Positions 2,813-9,968 of a stretch of 22,253 bases of DNA are shown piece after piece. Position numbers and translations under genes: made by a program. The DNA is taken from positions 1-22,253 of the IMG/VR virus record IMGVR_UViG_3300030107_001934; one strand, written 5' to 3'. The notes beneath the pieces are model-generated. The model made no database searches. It saw only the letters and a program-made list of their open reading frames with translations, and was not told the origin of the DNA. The stretch's first letter is position 1. Each line of letters begins with the position of its first letter. This DNA comes from a virus.

Positions 2813-2832
2813 TTAAATCTCCTTTTTAAAAT

Positions 2833-2895
2833 GAGGGCGGCGTATGGTAGTAGAAGGGAGAGATGATAAGAGACTAAATAAATATTACCGCCCTC
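2833..2895 (-). ncRNA. Structured leader element R1 with 8-bp G+C-rich closing stem
   Basis: GAGGGCGG (2833-2840) and CCGCCCTC (2888-2895) are perfect inverted repeats closing a 47-nt loop. Read leftward, the loop is pyrimidine-rich (ATCTCTCCCTTC). The stem is G+C-only apart from one pair, striking in this A+T-rich arm. It has no T-run after it, so it is not a normal terminator. It ends about 20 nt before the ATG of the 118-aa gene. The stem fits a form shared with 7378-7475 and 7960-8023. An RNA element is inferred; the inverted repeat is directly visible. Confidence 0.5.
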
Positions 2896-2927
2896 CCTAG
2901 AATATAATACCCTTTGCCATTAATATA

Positions 2928-3061
2928 AAAGAGGTAGTTAAAATATTATGCTCAGCCTCAATATTAGCGCCAACCAACATTCAACTATACCATCCTATCA
3001 AAACAAACCACATAATGTTTATTTAGGATTAGAAAGGACACAATATAATAACTACCTTTTT
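2928..3061 (-). ncRNA. Structured element R2, long-range stem with nested hairpin
   Basis: AGGTAGTTA (2932-2940) pairs with TAACTACCT (3049-3057), and after a 2x2 internal loop five more pairs follow (2943-2947 with 3042-3046). A few A-T pairs extend the base out to 2928/3061. Nested inside are ATCCTA (2992-2997) with TAGGAT (3024-3029), enclosing AAACA (3001-3005) with TGTTT (3016-3020). It lies between the SSB-like gene and the 118-aa gene. One flanking pair is G-T in the plus sense, so strand cannot be decided from wobbles here; leftward transcription is assumed from the genes. Confidence 0.4.
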
Positions 3062-3075
3062 ATTTTATTTACTAT

Positions 3076-5609: not shown

Positions 5610-5666
5610 AAAGTCTCTCCTACTCTTAAATTTAATAATAATAAAGGTTACAGTCAATGATATAAT

Positions 5667-5717
5667 GCAGAATAGAGCCCCAACAAGAAGGAAATGAGAA
5701 AAAGGGCCCTACTCTGC
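5667..5717 (-). ncRNA. Structured leader element R3, 14-bp stem on leftward RNA
   Basis: Positions 5667-5680 and 5704-5717 form an inverted repeat with two imperfections. In leftward RNA both imperfections become G-U wobbles and all 14 positions pair; in rightward RNA they would be A-C mismatches. The 23-nt loop is pyrimidine-rich in the leftward sense (TTTCCTTCTTG). A smaller hairpin follows at 5721-5736 (GTCTC/GAGAC with a 6-nt loop). The element lies about 60 nt ahead of the nuclease start, in the 5610-5739 gap. No T-run follows it, so it is more likely a leader or processing structure than a terminator. Confidence 0.6.
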
Positions 5718-5739
5718 GCAGTCTCATAGCGGAGACCAA

Positions 5740-5937
5740 TTATTTTTTTATTTGTTTCATGTTTTTATAGTTTCTAACTATTTCTATGTCAACAACATAG
5801 CTTTCATGACAATGAATACAATGCCATACTTCCCATTCTACTGCATCTCCATAACTATATTCTAGTGTATCACCATAAGATTCATCTGTGCAGCATTTAT
5901 TTGGTTTCTTATCTGTTGTTTCAGGTTGTATCATCAT
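5740..5937 (-). CDS. Small zinc-finger-like protein (65 aa)
   Basis: Not assigned to a family. Two cysteine pairs, KCCTD (Cys15, Cys16) and HCIHCHE (Cys40, Cys43 with flanking histidines), could bind one zinc. Between them is an aromatic/acidic strand pair (DTLEYSYGDAVEWEVWH). The start is ATGATG; the first ATG overlaps the preceding gene's TGA as ATGA and has AGGGAG upstream. It is the last gene of the small-gene string before the R3 structure and the nuclease gene. Confidence 0.65.
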   Translation of the reverse strand: MMIQPETTDKKPNKCCTDESYGDTLEYSYGDAVEWEVWHCIHCHESYVVDIEIVRNYKNMKQIKK

Positions 5938-6476: not shown

Positions 6477-6662
6477 TTATCCTCCCCATGTTACTGTTCC
6501 ATATCTATCACCAAATAATTTAGAACATACTCTACAATTTTTATGTATTGGTTTTGTTTTATCTAAATCAGCTACTCTTGATGTATAGATTCTTTTAGAA
6601 TTTACTTCTTCATGTTCCATATATTTCTGCTCACATAGTTTACAATAATATATTTGACTCAT
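6477..6662 (-). CDS. Small zinc-ribbon protein (61 aa)
   Basis: Two CxxC pairs, YYCKLCEQ (Cys7, Cys10) and KNCRVCSKLFG (Cys43, Cys46), separated by a basic stretch, give a classic four-cysteine zinc ribbon. The role is not known; such phage proteins can bind nucleic acid or host proteins. The frame is open six codons further, but the ATG at 6662 overlaps the preceding TGA as ATGA, so this start is preferred. Its final codons carry the ribosome site for the next gene. Confidence 0.65.
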   Translation of the reverse strand: MSQIYYCKLCEQKYMEHEEVNSKRIYTSRVADLDKTKPIHKNCRVCSKLFGDRYGTVTWGG

Positions 6663-7000
6663 GATGCAGCTAACCCCCAAAAGAAAAATGCTTTAATATT
6701 TCTTTTACCTTTATATCCTCTTTGTTCTTTAATTCTTTTAAGAATTGCTCCTTTTACTTCAATGCAATTCCATGCTCCCCATTTAGTTCCTTCAATAGTT
6801 TTATCATAAAATTTTTCCCATGCTTTAGTACCATATCTAGGATGTTTTGTTATTATTTTAAATCCATCTGATGTAGATATTGTACCATTGTATCCATCAT
6901 GTCCTTTTTCATACTCAGCTTCTTTAACAGATTCTGCATATGCTTGATTAGCATCTCTATATCTACCAATTTTTAATACTGAACAATTATGTGCTCCCAT
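6659..7000 (-). CDS. Hypothetical protein (113 aa)
   Basis: No named function. The segment ANQAYAESVKEAEYEKGHDG, then YNGTISTSDGFKIITKHP, resembles a pattern I have seen in small phage proteins (A-x-x-A-x-x-E-x-G-x-D-x-Y-x-GTI), but I cannot tie it to a characterised family. The rest is basic (KGAILKRIKEQRGYKGKRN) and ends in a hydrophobic FFFWGL. AAGGA lies about 8 nt before the ATG. It follows the 505-nt structured gap, so its message probably carries at least the 7033-7065 hairpin as a leader. Confidence 0.65.
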   Translation of the reverse strand: MGAHNCSVLKIGRYRDANQAYAESVKEAEYEKGHDGYNGTISTSDGFKIITKHPRYGTKAWEKFYDKTIEGTKWGAWNCIEVKGAILKRIKEQRGYKGKRNIKAFFFWGLAAS

Positions 7001-7032
7001 GTTATTTTCCTTTTATTGTTATTTAAAATTTA

Positions 7033-7065
7033 AGTGGGGACTGAACTCTTAAAACAATCCCCACT
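7033..7065 (-). repeat. Domain D1 hairpin, 8 bp
   Basis: AGTGGGGA (7033-7040) and TCCCCACT (7058-7065) are perfect inverted repeats around a 17-nt loop. It is the structure nearest the 113-aa gene, ending about 32 nt before its start codon. No T-run follows. Confidence 0.6.
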
Positions 7066-7191
7066 ATAGCCTATCATTTAATCTTAACTGTATACGCTAC
7101 ATCTATTGTTATTTATTACAAACTCCTGTTAAATAAACTGATGATTGCAAAAATACATCTGATTGTAGTCGCAGGAGATATGATAGGCTAT
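7066..7191 (-). repeat. Domain D2, 12-bp long-range stem with inner stem
   Basis: ATAGCCTATCAT (7066-7077) pairs perfectly with ATGATAGGCTAT (7180-7191), spanning 126 nt. Inside, CTCCTG (7123-7128) pairs with CAGGAG (7172-7177). A 12-bp perfect match over this distance is unlikely by chance among the few hundred bases available. Confidence 0.6.
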
Positions 7192-7194
7192 TTT

Positions 7195-7257
7195 TACACT
7201 AACTCACAACCCTTAGTCGGCGTGTTCGAACTTTGCTTGTTAATGTAAGCTAGTGTA
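7195..7257 (-). repeat. Domain D3, 7-bp stem with small inner hairpin
   Basis: TACACTA (7195-7201) pairs with TAGTGTA (7251-7257). Inside are GCTT/AAGC (7235-7238 with 7247-7250, 8-nt loop) and the palindrome GTTCGAAC at 7224-7231. It superficially recalls a tRNA acceptor plus D-arm, but the anticodon and T-arms are missing. Confidence 0.45.
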
Positions 7258-7264
7258 TAAATAA

Positions 7265-7365
7265 TAGGCTCTGGATAGTTACAACAGCAGTGATGAAGGT
7301 TCCTGTACTCGCAACGTCTTACGATGTGGTTTCCTATGTGCTATACACGCGTCACCAGAAGCCTA
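7265..7365 (-). repeat. Domain D4, 10-bp stem with one bulge
   Basis: TAGGCT (7265-7270) pairs with AGCCTA (7360-7365) and, across a single bulged base at 7359, CTGG (7271-7274) pairs with CCAG (7355-7358). The AGGCT core also occurs in the D2 stem, so D2 and D4 arms could exchange partners. Confidence 0.5.
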
Positions 7366-7377
7366 AATTAAAGTTAA

Positions 7378-7475
7378 GAGGGTTGATTATTATGCAATTA
7401 GATGACTCGAGTCCTTTATAAATGGATACCTAATTACTGCTTTAAAACCCTTAAAGTTTATAAAGCACAACCCTC
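7378..7475 (-). repeat. Domain D5, 8-bp stem with nested stems
   Basis: GAGGGTTG (7378-7385) pairs with CAACCCTC (7468-7475). Inside, AATTAG (7396-7401) pairs with CTAATT (7430-7435), and GACTCGAGTC (7404-7413) is a 10-base palindrome. AAACCCTTAA near 7444-7454 is a competing partner for the outer arm. The closing stem matches the KAGGGYKG form seen at 2833 and 7960. Confidence 0.5.
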
Positions 7476-7505
7476 AAAATAAGGGATACTTACTCACTCG
7501 CGCCG

Positions 7506-7739
7506 CTATATTGTATGAGAATTAGGAACGTCCTTTGGCGCATCTTCAGTATCCCCATACACTTCTTCTTTTAAAAATTTAATATATTTACCTTGACAAT
7601 CATGACTATAAGGTTTTTCAATGATCTTAATAATATCTTCAGCATCATCAAATTTTTCTCTTACTCTATATTTAATAAACTTAATAAAATCATCATCGGT
7701 ATTAATTTGAGGAGTTATTCCTTCTATATTTAAATACAT
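7506..7739 (-). CDS. Small acidic hypothetical protein (77 aa)
   Basis: Not recognised. It starts YLNIEGITPQINTDDDFIKF, followed by a charged helix (REKFDDAEDIIKIIEK), and a proline-rich acidic tail (EDAPKDVPNSHTI). AAGGAATAATT precedes the ATG, which lies 2 nt after the stop of the 65-aa gene. It is the last gene before the structured 505-nt gap. Confidence 0.6.
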   Translation of the reverse strand: MYLNIEGITPQINTDDDFIKFIKYRVREKFDDAEDIIKIIEKPYSHDCQGKYIKFLKEEVYGDTEDAPKDVPNSHTI

Positions 7740-7959: not shown

Positions 7960-8023
7960 TAGGGCTGCCTGTTCACAAGGAGGATTGTTTGTGATTACAT
8001 GACGTATGTGGATGACAGCCCTA
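7960..8023 (-). ncRNA. Structured leader element R4, three-way-junction-like
   Basis: TAGGGCTG (7960-7967) pairs with CAGCCCTA (8016-8023). Two hairpins fit inside: CACAA/TTGTG (7974-7978 with 7989-7993) and ACAT/ATGT (7997-8000 with 8006-8009). In leftward RNA the first loop reads ACAATCCTCC, with CCTCCTT formed across the loop and stem edge, identical to the anti-Shine-Dalgarno core of 16S rRNA. The element fills the gap between the 83-aa gene's stop and the 65-aa gene's ribosome site. There is no T-run, so it is not a standard terminator. Confidence 0.55.
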
Positions 8024-8894: not shown

Positions 8895-9008
8895 GGGATA
8901 TGACCTGTAGAATTGATACATCAAGTGTACTCAAACTATCTTCAGACCACTGGGTATCCTAGTAACCAACTAGAACAAGGATTGGTTAAATCACAATCTT
9001 CATATCCC
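8895..9008 (-). ncRNA. Candidate 114-nt structured small RNA (R5)
   Basis: GGGATATGA (8895-8903) and TCATATCCC (9000-9008) are perfect inverted repeats; read leftward the RNA would begin and end with this stem. Inside, in leftward order, lie GATTG/CAATC and CTAGT/ACTAG hairpins and a possible GATAC/GTATC pairing. Two overlapping TATAAT boxes (9009-9014 and 9014-9019) sit directly upstream, and the second would place the first transcribed base at the first G of the stem. The -35 region is weak. A stand-alone RNA is inference; the repeat and boxes are seen. Confidence 0.45.
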
Positions 9009-9019
9009 ATTATATTATA
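9009..9019 (-). promoter_or_regulatory. Overlapping TATAAT -10 boxes
   Basis: Two perfect leftward TATAAT hexamers overlap by one base. A third lies at 9055-9060. A TTGGGC at 9031-9036 is 16 nt upstream of the box at 9009-9014 and matches the -35 consensus only at TTG. Their position next to the 8895-9008 stem suggests a local promoter, but A+T-rich DNA gives such boxes by chance. Confidence 0.3.
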
Positions 9020-9071
9020 TTAAAGTTTTTGCCCAAGTTATACAAAAATCTCATATTATACGAGAAAATAA

Positions 9072-9102
9072 CACTCTCGACACACTCAGGCACTCTCCGA
9101 CA
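9072..9102. repeat. Short direct repeat
   Basis: CACTCTCGACA (9072-9082) and CACTCTCCGACA (9091-9102) differ by one inserted C and are 8 nt apart. It could be a protein-binding pair or chance. No larger array is present. Confidence 0.35.
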
Positions 9103-9134
9103 ATGTTAATAAATAAGTCATAAATAATAATAAA

Positions 9135-9171
9135 GAGGTTGTGGGAGCTACTAAACTTCACTCCCATCCTC
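9135..9171 (-). terminator. Hairpin after first leftward gene, possible terminator or processing site
   Basis: GAGG (9135-9138) with CCTC (9168-9171) and TGGGAG (9142-9147) with CTCCCA (9161-9166) make a two-part stem with a 13-nt loop. In leftward RNA it is followed by a moderately T-rich stretch (TTTATTATTATTT), so weak termination after the 103-aa gene is possible. It lies 20 nt past that gene's stop codon. Confidence 0.45.
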
Positions 9172-9190
9172 ATTTAGATCAGATACCTAC

Positions 9191-9502: not shown

Positions 9503-9562
9503 TCATATTCTCCTTATTGACTTATTAATTAATTAATCAAATAAAATACAAATCAAAAATAA

Positions 9563-9598
9563 CGTAAATTCCATTTACGAAATCCCCCTTCAAGGGGG
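9563..9598 (-). promoter_or_regulatory. Two tandem hairpins in the leftward leader
   Basis: CCCCCT/AGGGGG (9584-9589 with 9593-9598, loop TCA) and CGTAAAT/ATTTACG (9563-9569 with 9573-9579, loop TCC) lie 4 nt apart. In leftward RNA the second is followed by TTATTTTTGATTT, so the pair could act as a weak attenuator ahead of the 103-aa gene. In the rightward sense there is no T-run. Confidence 0.45.
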
Positions 9599-9627
9599 TA
9601 TCTAATGGGAAAAAGGTTACATTTCAA
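9599..9627 (-). promoter_or_regulatory. Candidate leftward promoter
   Basis: Leftward TTGAAA (9622-9627) is separated by 17 nt from TAGATA (9599-9604), a reasonable sigma70-type pair. The predicted start falls near 9592, within the G+C-rich hairpin, giving a roughly 90-nt leader before the 103-aa gene. Sequence-only call. Confidence 0.4.
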
Positions 9628-9667
9628 AATCCTATAATTTTTTTTGTAAACAACTTGGTCGTATCAC

Positions 9668-9697
9668 TTGACTTTGATTTGACTTACATATTAGATT
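9668..9697 (+). promoter_or_regulatory. Candidate rightward promoter
   Basis: TTGACT (9668-9673), an 18-nt spacer and TAGATT (9692-9697). TTGACTT recurs 11 nt later (9679), so the region may also carry a repeated operator-like word. A lone TATAAT at 9724-9729 lacks a -35 partner. One of these probably drives the packaging and virion genes. Confidence 0.4.
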
Positions 9698-9749
9698 CTG
9701 GGCGGTGGTTGGGTTAAGGAATATATAATGTGTAGTAAGAAGGAAAAAA

Positions 9750-9968
9750 ATGGCGGAAGAGTTTAAAGAATTATCTCACCTTAATGAATCTGAGCAAGAG
9801 GCTATATTAGAGACAATTTCTAAGTCATATACTCCAATACAAATAGATAGTAAAATATATATGATACCAGAAGCTGTTAATGATTTAATAGATAAATTAG
9901 TAAGTAAGTTAGAAGATAAAGGTTATAACGTAACAATAGGAGAGTTGTTTGGAGAAAAGAACAATTAA
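9750..9968 (+). CDS. Small acidic hypothetical protein (72 aa)
   Basis: First rightward gene; not recognised. Helical and acidic: KELSHLNESEQEAILETISK, a short strand pair (PIQIDSKIYMIPEAVNDL), then DKLVSKLEDKGYNVTIGELF. AGAAGGA lies about 7 nt before the ATG. Its 3' end carries the AGGAG site of the TerS-like gene, with which it overlaps by 20 nt, so it is likely co-translated with the packaging genes. Confidence 0.65.
   Translation: MAEEFKELSHLNESEQEAILETISKSYTPIQIDSKIYMIPEAVNDLIDKLVSKLEDKGYNVTIGELFGEKNN

Follow-up and report, generated by a model that had tools for sequence, protein, structure and literature searches.

The 505-nt gap and its flanking genes

The stretch of DNA analysed here, 22,253 nt of one strand of an uncultivated virus record (hereafter the window), encodes a terminase, a portal protein, a PD-(D/E)XK nuclease and a DUF932 protein, among others, and can thus be regarded as a fragment of a tailed phage. 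No close cultured relative was found: the terminase matches those of phages only below 60% identity (the best listed matches being at about 25%), and the 113-aa protein considered below gives only weak matches among cultured phages, to Rhodococcus and Gordonia phages. Therefore, no host was assigned. Our guess would be that the virus is marine.

Positions 7001-7505 form a 505-nt gap flanked by a 113-aa gene and a 77-aa ORF, both on the minus strand (Table 1). The 113-aa protein has no Pfam or PHROG match but 21 relatives among viral contigs. No relative of the 77-aa ORF was found among the fetched loci, and it may not be a real gene, or its C-terminus may be supplied by the structured element that overlaps its last codons.

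The minus strand of the gap is predicted to fold at -131.1 kcal/mol, as compared to -106.1 +- 5.9 kcal/mol in shuffled sequences (z -4.2, 0/100), while the plus strand differs less from its shuffled versions (z -3.4). As folding by itself is insufficient proof, we compared the gap with its counterparts in relatives. Their non-coding gaps were reached via the 113-aa protein, and more contigs were added by pattern scans with module cores.

Table 1. Coordinates of the elements in and around the gap, with names from the initial annotation in brackets.
Element	Position	Strand	Description
113-aa gene	6659..7000	-	downstream of the array
Leader and ribosome-binding site of the 113-aa gene	7001..7032	-	unpaired in the predicted fold
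Module G (D1)	7033-7065	-	terminal hairpin adjoining the leader; 11 pairs including wobbles
Module B (D2)	7066-7191	-	12 perfect bp; 28 distinct copies
Module X (D3)	7195-7257	-	14-pair stem including G-U; GTTCGAAC / GCTCGAGC loop; 6 distinct copies
Module C (D4)	7265-7365	-	two copies in all: window and L014
Module E (D5)	7378-7475	-	8-bp closing stem GAGGGTTG/CAACCCTC; two inner hairpins
Module I	7483-7556	-	8-bp stem, 7483-7490 with 7548-7555; absent from the initial annotation
77-aa ORF	7506-7739	-	last codons overlap module I
Module K	7960-8023	-	AGGGCTG...CAGCCCT; upstream of a 65-aa gene

The gap holds an array of structured modules

The gap is almost certainly occupied by strand-specific RNA modules, arranged as a tandem array of six separate structured units on the minus strand. 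Read 5' to 3' on that strand, their order is I, E, C, X, B, G, and the linkers between them are almost pure A/U. The initial annotation had proposed five inverted repeats tiling this region. All five stems are present close to where it had placed them, closing functional RNA folds that are kept in relatives, and the first two domains (modules G and B) indeed abut. The stem of the third was real but undersized, counted as 7 pairs where 14 can form with G-U pairs included. All five domains stand, but a sixth, module I, had been overlooked at the right edge of the gap, where it extends over the last codons of the 77-aa ORF.

The modules differ in how they are conserved. Module B combines a variable outer stem, a near-invariant internal-loop core (CATATCTCCTGCGA / CGTATACAGTTAAGATTAAATG) and a variable inner hairpin. 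In L019 and L020, 106 nt at module E are 98% identical to the window, and module I has a core, CTCATACAATATAGCNGCGC, conserved in L016, L019 and L037, with a closing stem that varies in sequence. Copies of module G occur in L016, L019 and L020, with G-U exchanges that preserve the stem; this module is conserved together with the leader (similarity block 7067-6995), and a TTAAATTTTAAATAACAATAAAAGGA-like leader is also found before other genes in relatives. Searches with core patterns of module C returned almost nothing beyond chance matches.

Other non-coding parts of the window show similarity to relatives as well. Module K has a counterpart in L017, with 88% identity across 89 nt. The gaps at 5640-5745, 2813-3075 and about 9000-9190 (minus strand) are similar to sequences in several relatives, and they are probably structured too. 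Between the divergent gene arms, the non-coding stretch 9503-9750 retains 77-89% identity in many relatives and probably is a divergent promoter or origin region.

Helices are maintained by compensatory changes

Homologous gaps were examined for loss of the stems, and the stems were found to be retained. Covariation was found as well, most strongly in module B. Across its 28 copies, 95.6% of cells are paired and 9 pairs are altered on both sides; the covariation score, calculated for a structure named from the alignment, is 0.243, against 0.091 +- 0.010 after shuffling (0/500) and no more than 0.053 in slid controls. Even within the otherwise near-invariant core, the copy of L061 carries two compensatory changes. 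Support is modest for module X (6 copies, 98.9% paired, 2 pairs altered on both sides), and one to a few changes were seen in modules C, E and G. For example, TAGGCT/AGCCTA of module C in the window is replaced by TAGACT/AGTCTA in L014, and the closing stem of module E, GAGGGTTG/CAACCCTC, becomes GGGGGTTG/CAACCCCC in L024. Among modules seen in relatives, D is an H-type pseudoknot which is common there, with one covarying pair per stem, but the window yielded no match to it. Two-sided pair changes are also seen in modules A, H, Q, F, S, R and Y, in automatic alignments from which both the structure and the change counts were drawn.

Two suggestions about alternative folding did not survive this comparison. 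An AGGCT core common to the second and fourth domains (modules B and C) had been noted, and it is not kept: the stem of module B reads CTACT, CTTTA, AACCTG and others in relatives, while the module C copy of L014 has AGACT, with no module B detected in that locus. A competing partner of the module E arm had also been pointed out. It lies in module X, which occurs in L040 and L045 where module E is undetected. As neither the pairing between B and C nor that between X and E is kept in relatives, a conserved alternative fold is unsupported.

Modules recur separately and are shuffled between phages

All six modules of the window are found again in contigs of other uncultivated phages, in differing combinations; each occurs elsewhere without most of the others, and the gaps of relatives hold pieces of the window's gap but never all of it. 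A fuzzy search with 21 core patterns, of which about 18 were counted as independent module families, assigned about a dozen families beyond the window's six to the same array system. Examples of array orders are I-D-E-F-B-G (L020), F-B-E (L024), H-B-A-D-S (L036), X-B-Q (L040), Z-D-Y-T-R (L009) and d-D-U-S (L053). The order of a given pair is not fixed: E lies ahead of B in the window and in L020 but behind it in L024, and A lies ahead of B in L003 but behind it in L036. Genes downstream of or flanking the arrays differ between contigs.

Many similarity blocks stop at or near a module border or stem, as does that of module E (7482-7366), and many module B matches stop at 7064-7067. Some module B matches break off within it, since the inner hairpin varies. 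Inner hairpins seem to be mobile too, since a GATTCATTGAAATTATTCAAC hairpin lies within B in L026 and within G in L020. In addition, a short hairpin with a GGAYTCYGCA-like motif and differing stems is present in many arrays (L005, L024, L043, L052, L066) and is possibly one more widespread module family.

In none of 15 contigs (32-73 kb, a few of them covered only to 40 kb) does any searched family occur twice, and in each of these contigs all module matches are on one strand. A covariance-model search for divergent copies of module B yielded no new ones, and GTDB genomes contain no exact match to the core of this module.

Modules follow the strand of the genes

In 10 of 10 modules, the strand of the genes gives the more stable consensus fold. 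Of 136 modules placed, 119 are oriented like the majority of the three nearest ORFs, and the other 17 are mostly close to contig ends or to divergent genes. Where flanking genes are co-directional, 4331 similarities between non-coding gaps keep the same orientation and 32 are inverted, a count that includes missed coding sequence. No promoter of the modules' own was seen in a scan limited to sigma-70-like sites, which occur at chance level (5 vs 6.2 +- 2.5). Terminator-like sites number 1, with 0.5 expected.

Comparison with known structured RNAs

As the initial annotation had anticipated, the region matches neither GOLLD nor ROOL, also when the search was relaxed. More generally, no Rfam family reached threshold in the window or in 22 loci, and relaxed searches gave no credible match. 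EGFOA-assoc-1 (RF02970) scored 16.4 bits (E 0.037) against a gathering threshold of 224.5 bits and was not seen in the homologous modules of L013 or L040; we treated it as a chance match, as we did a sub-threshold match to RAGATH-15 in L052.

GOLLD and ROOL often lie near tRNA islands, while in the window, itself a fragment of 22 kb, ARAGORN found no tRNA or tmRNA. What these RNAs have in common with the arrays is that they are large structured non-coding regions in phages; the difference is that each has a single conserved fold, whereas here separable modules are shuffled. Phage tRNA clusters likewise line up small RNAs in a mosaic fashion on the strand of the genes, but the module folds are unrelated to tRNA.

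In GOLLD and OLE, the replacement of one palindrome by another was taken to indicate symmetric kissing loops (PMC12286853), and similar switching is seen in the arrays. One loop position of module d (L003, L010, L012, L015, L022, L055) reads GATATC, CTCGAG, CACGTG or AATATT, the loop of module T is ACAGCTGT or AACTCGAGTT, that of module X is GTTCGAAC or GCTCGAGC, and that of module I is GGTTAACC or GGATATCC. Exceptions are GATTCG in two distinct d sequences and GGACGTTCC in module I of the window. The switching in module d suggests symmetric kissing loops, and the palindromic loops may hint at the homo-oligomeric RNA-only assembly of GOLLD and ROOL. On the other hand, the loops of X, T and I could alternatively form small hairpins. 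As palindromes show no significant enrichment across the arrays overall and these loops were picked by eye, we regard dimerisation as a lead only.

Two other phage systems share features with the arrays. Phage phiTE carries pseudo-ToxI, RNA decoys which mimic a type III antitoxin and are tandem, small, structured, trans-acting and evolved by recombination (PMC3475682). The arrays are likewise tandem and phage-borne. However, pseudo-ToxI repeats one pseudoknot unit, whereas the units here are unlike each other and do not, in the window, include the pseudoknot module D; with six different modules and no tandem repeat family there, a type III antitoxin or its phage mimic was rejected. PeSLs (promoter early stem-loops) of T4-type phages, also structured intergenic cassettes, are reported to mediate modular shuffling (PMC4503421). 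To judge by the titles of the original PeSL papers they are promoter-terminator composites, whereas the arrays have many distinct folds, conserved internal cores and no excess of sigma-70-like sites. Neither system matches the present arrangement. As the literature was checked within open-access papers, single motifs may have been reported separately.

What the modules may do

The initial annotation had considered either a large non-coding RNA or an elaborate leader of the 113-aa gene. The former holds as far as structured RNA is concerned, as indicated by covariation, gene orientation and conservation, but six autonomous modules take the place of one RNA. A riboswitch, with one conserved aptamer and an expression platform before a conserved gene set, or a leader dedicated to the 113-aa gene is unlikely: in relatives, these modules stand ahead of other genes, and the predicted fold leaves the ribosome-binding site open.

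The explanation we favour is that the gap is an array of six co-transcribed, independently folding modules which are shuffled by recombination and act in trans; to this statement as a whole we give a probability of about 0.42. The modules would presumably be transcribed with the leftward operon, each folding on its own, and might be released or insulated at the short A/U linkers that join them. They would be drawn from a repertoire shared by related uncultivated phages, recombination adding, removing and reordering them much as tRNA genes may be gained and lost in phage tRNA clusters. Conserved cores, such as the internal loop of B, might bind a partner in trans, the most plausible role being that of a decoy or modulator of a host component, and some modules might self-pair through palindromic loops. 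This explanation draws on the separate recurrence of modules, covarying helices, orientation with the genes, stability on the gene strand, single occurrence of each searched family in the 15 contigs and varied downstream genes, and on the precedent of phage RNA decoys (PMC3475682); it is weakened by sigma-70-like sites being at chance level, with no own promoter seen. We hold the trans-acting mechanism only tentatively. It is conceivable, though somewhat doubtful, that the arrays amount to a combinatorial library of unrelated, single-copy, trans-acting RNAs joined through recombination at helix borders, some of which self-associate via palindromic loops.

The main rival, which we consider a serious possibility though below even odds, is a role in cis, with modules serving as transferable 5' leaders or intercistronic elements for mRNA stability, processing or translation of the next gene. 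That modules are always placed among genes of a single strand would be predicted by a cis role too; module G is linked to a conserved leader with ribosome-binding site that stands ahead of several different genes, and the terminator-like site also fits. Nevertheless, arrays of four to seven unrelated modules before one gene exceed such a need, no searched family occurs twice in any of the 15 contigs though many genes could use one, and the open ribosome-binding site likewise speaks against it.

It seems improbable that the main role of the structured blocks is to supply homology by which genes are shuffled, a role that has been proposed for PeSLs. Similarity does break at or near module borders, flanking genes do vary between arrays, and PeSL-mediated shuffling has been reported (PMC4503421), but covariation with changing sequence opposes recombination driven by homology, and sigma-70-like sites are not enriched. 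Finally, elements acting as DNA, whether MITE-like repeats with terminal inverted repeats or cruciforms, are very improbable even though inverted repeats bound every module and modules move between sites, as the outer repeats of B vary and covary around a near-invariant core, no searched family is present twice in any of the 15 contigs, orientation follows the genes, and every module tested folds more stably on the gene strand.

The arrays thus comprise about 18 candidate structured-RNA families in one uncultivated phage group, shuffled as units and with no Rfam match in the searched loci. If these RNAs do act in trans, such phages would possess an accessory repertoire of RNAs in addition to that of proteins, and new counter-defence or host-takeover RNAs would be likely to be found in it. 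Should the arrays be a library of RNAs, they would be an RNA counterpart of protein accessory-gene islands.
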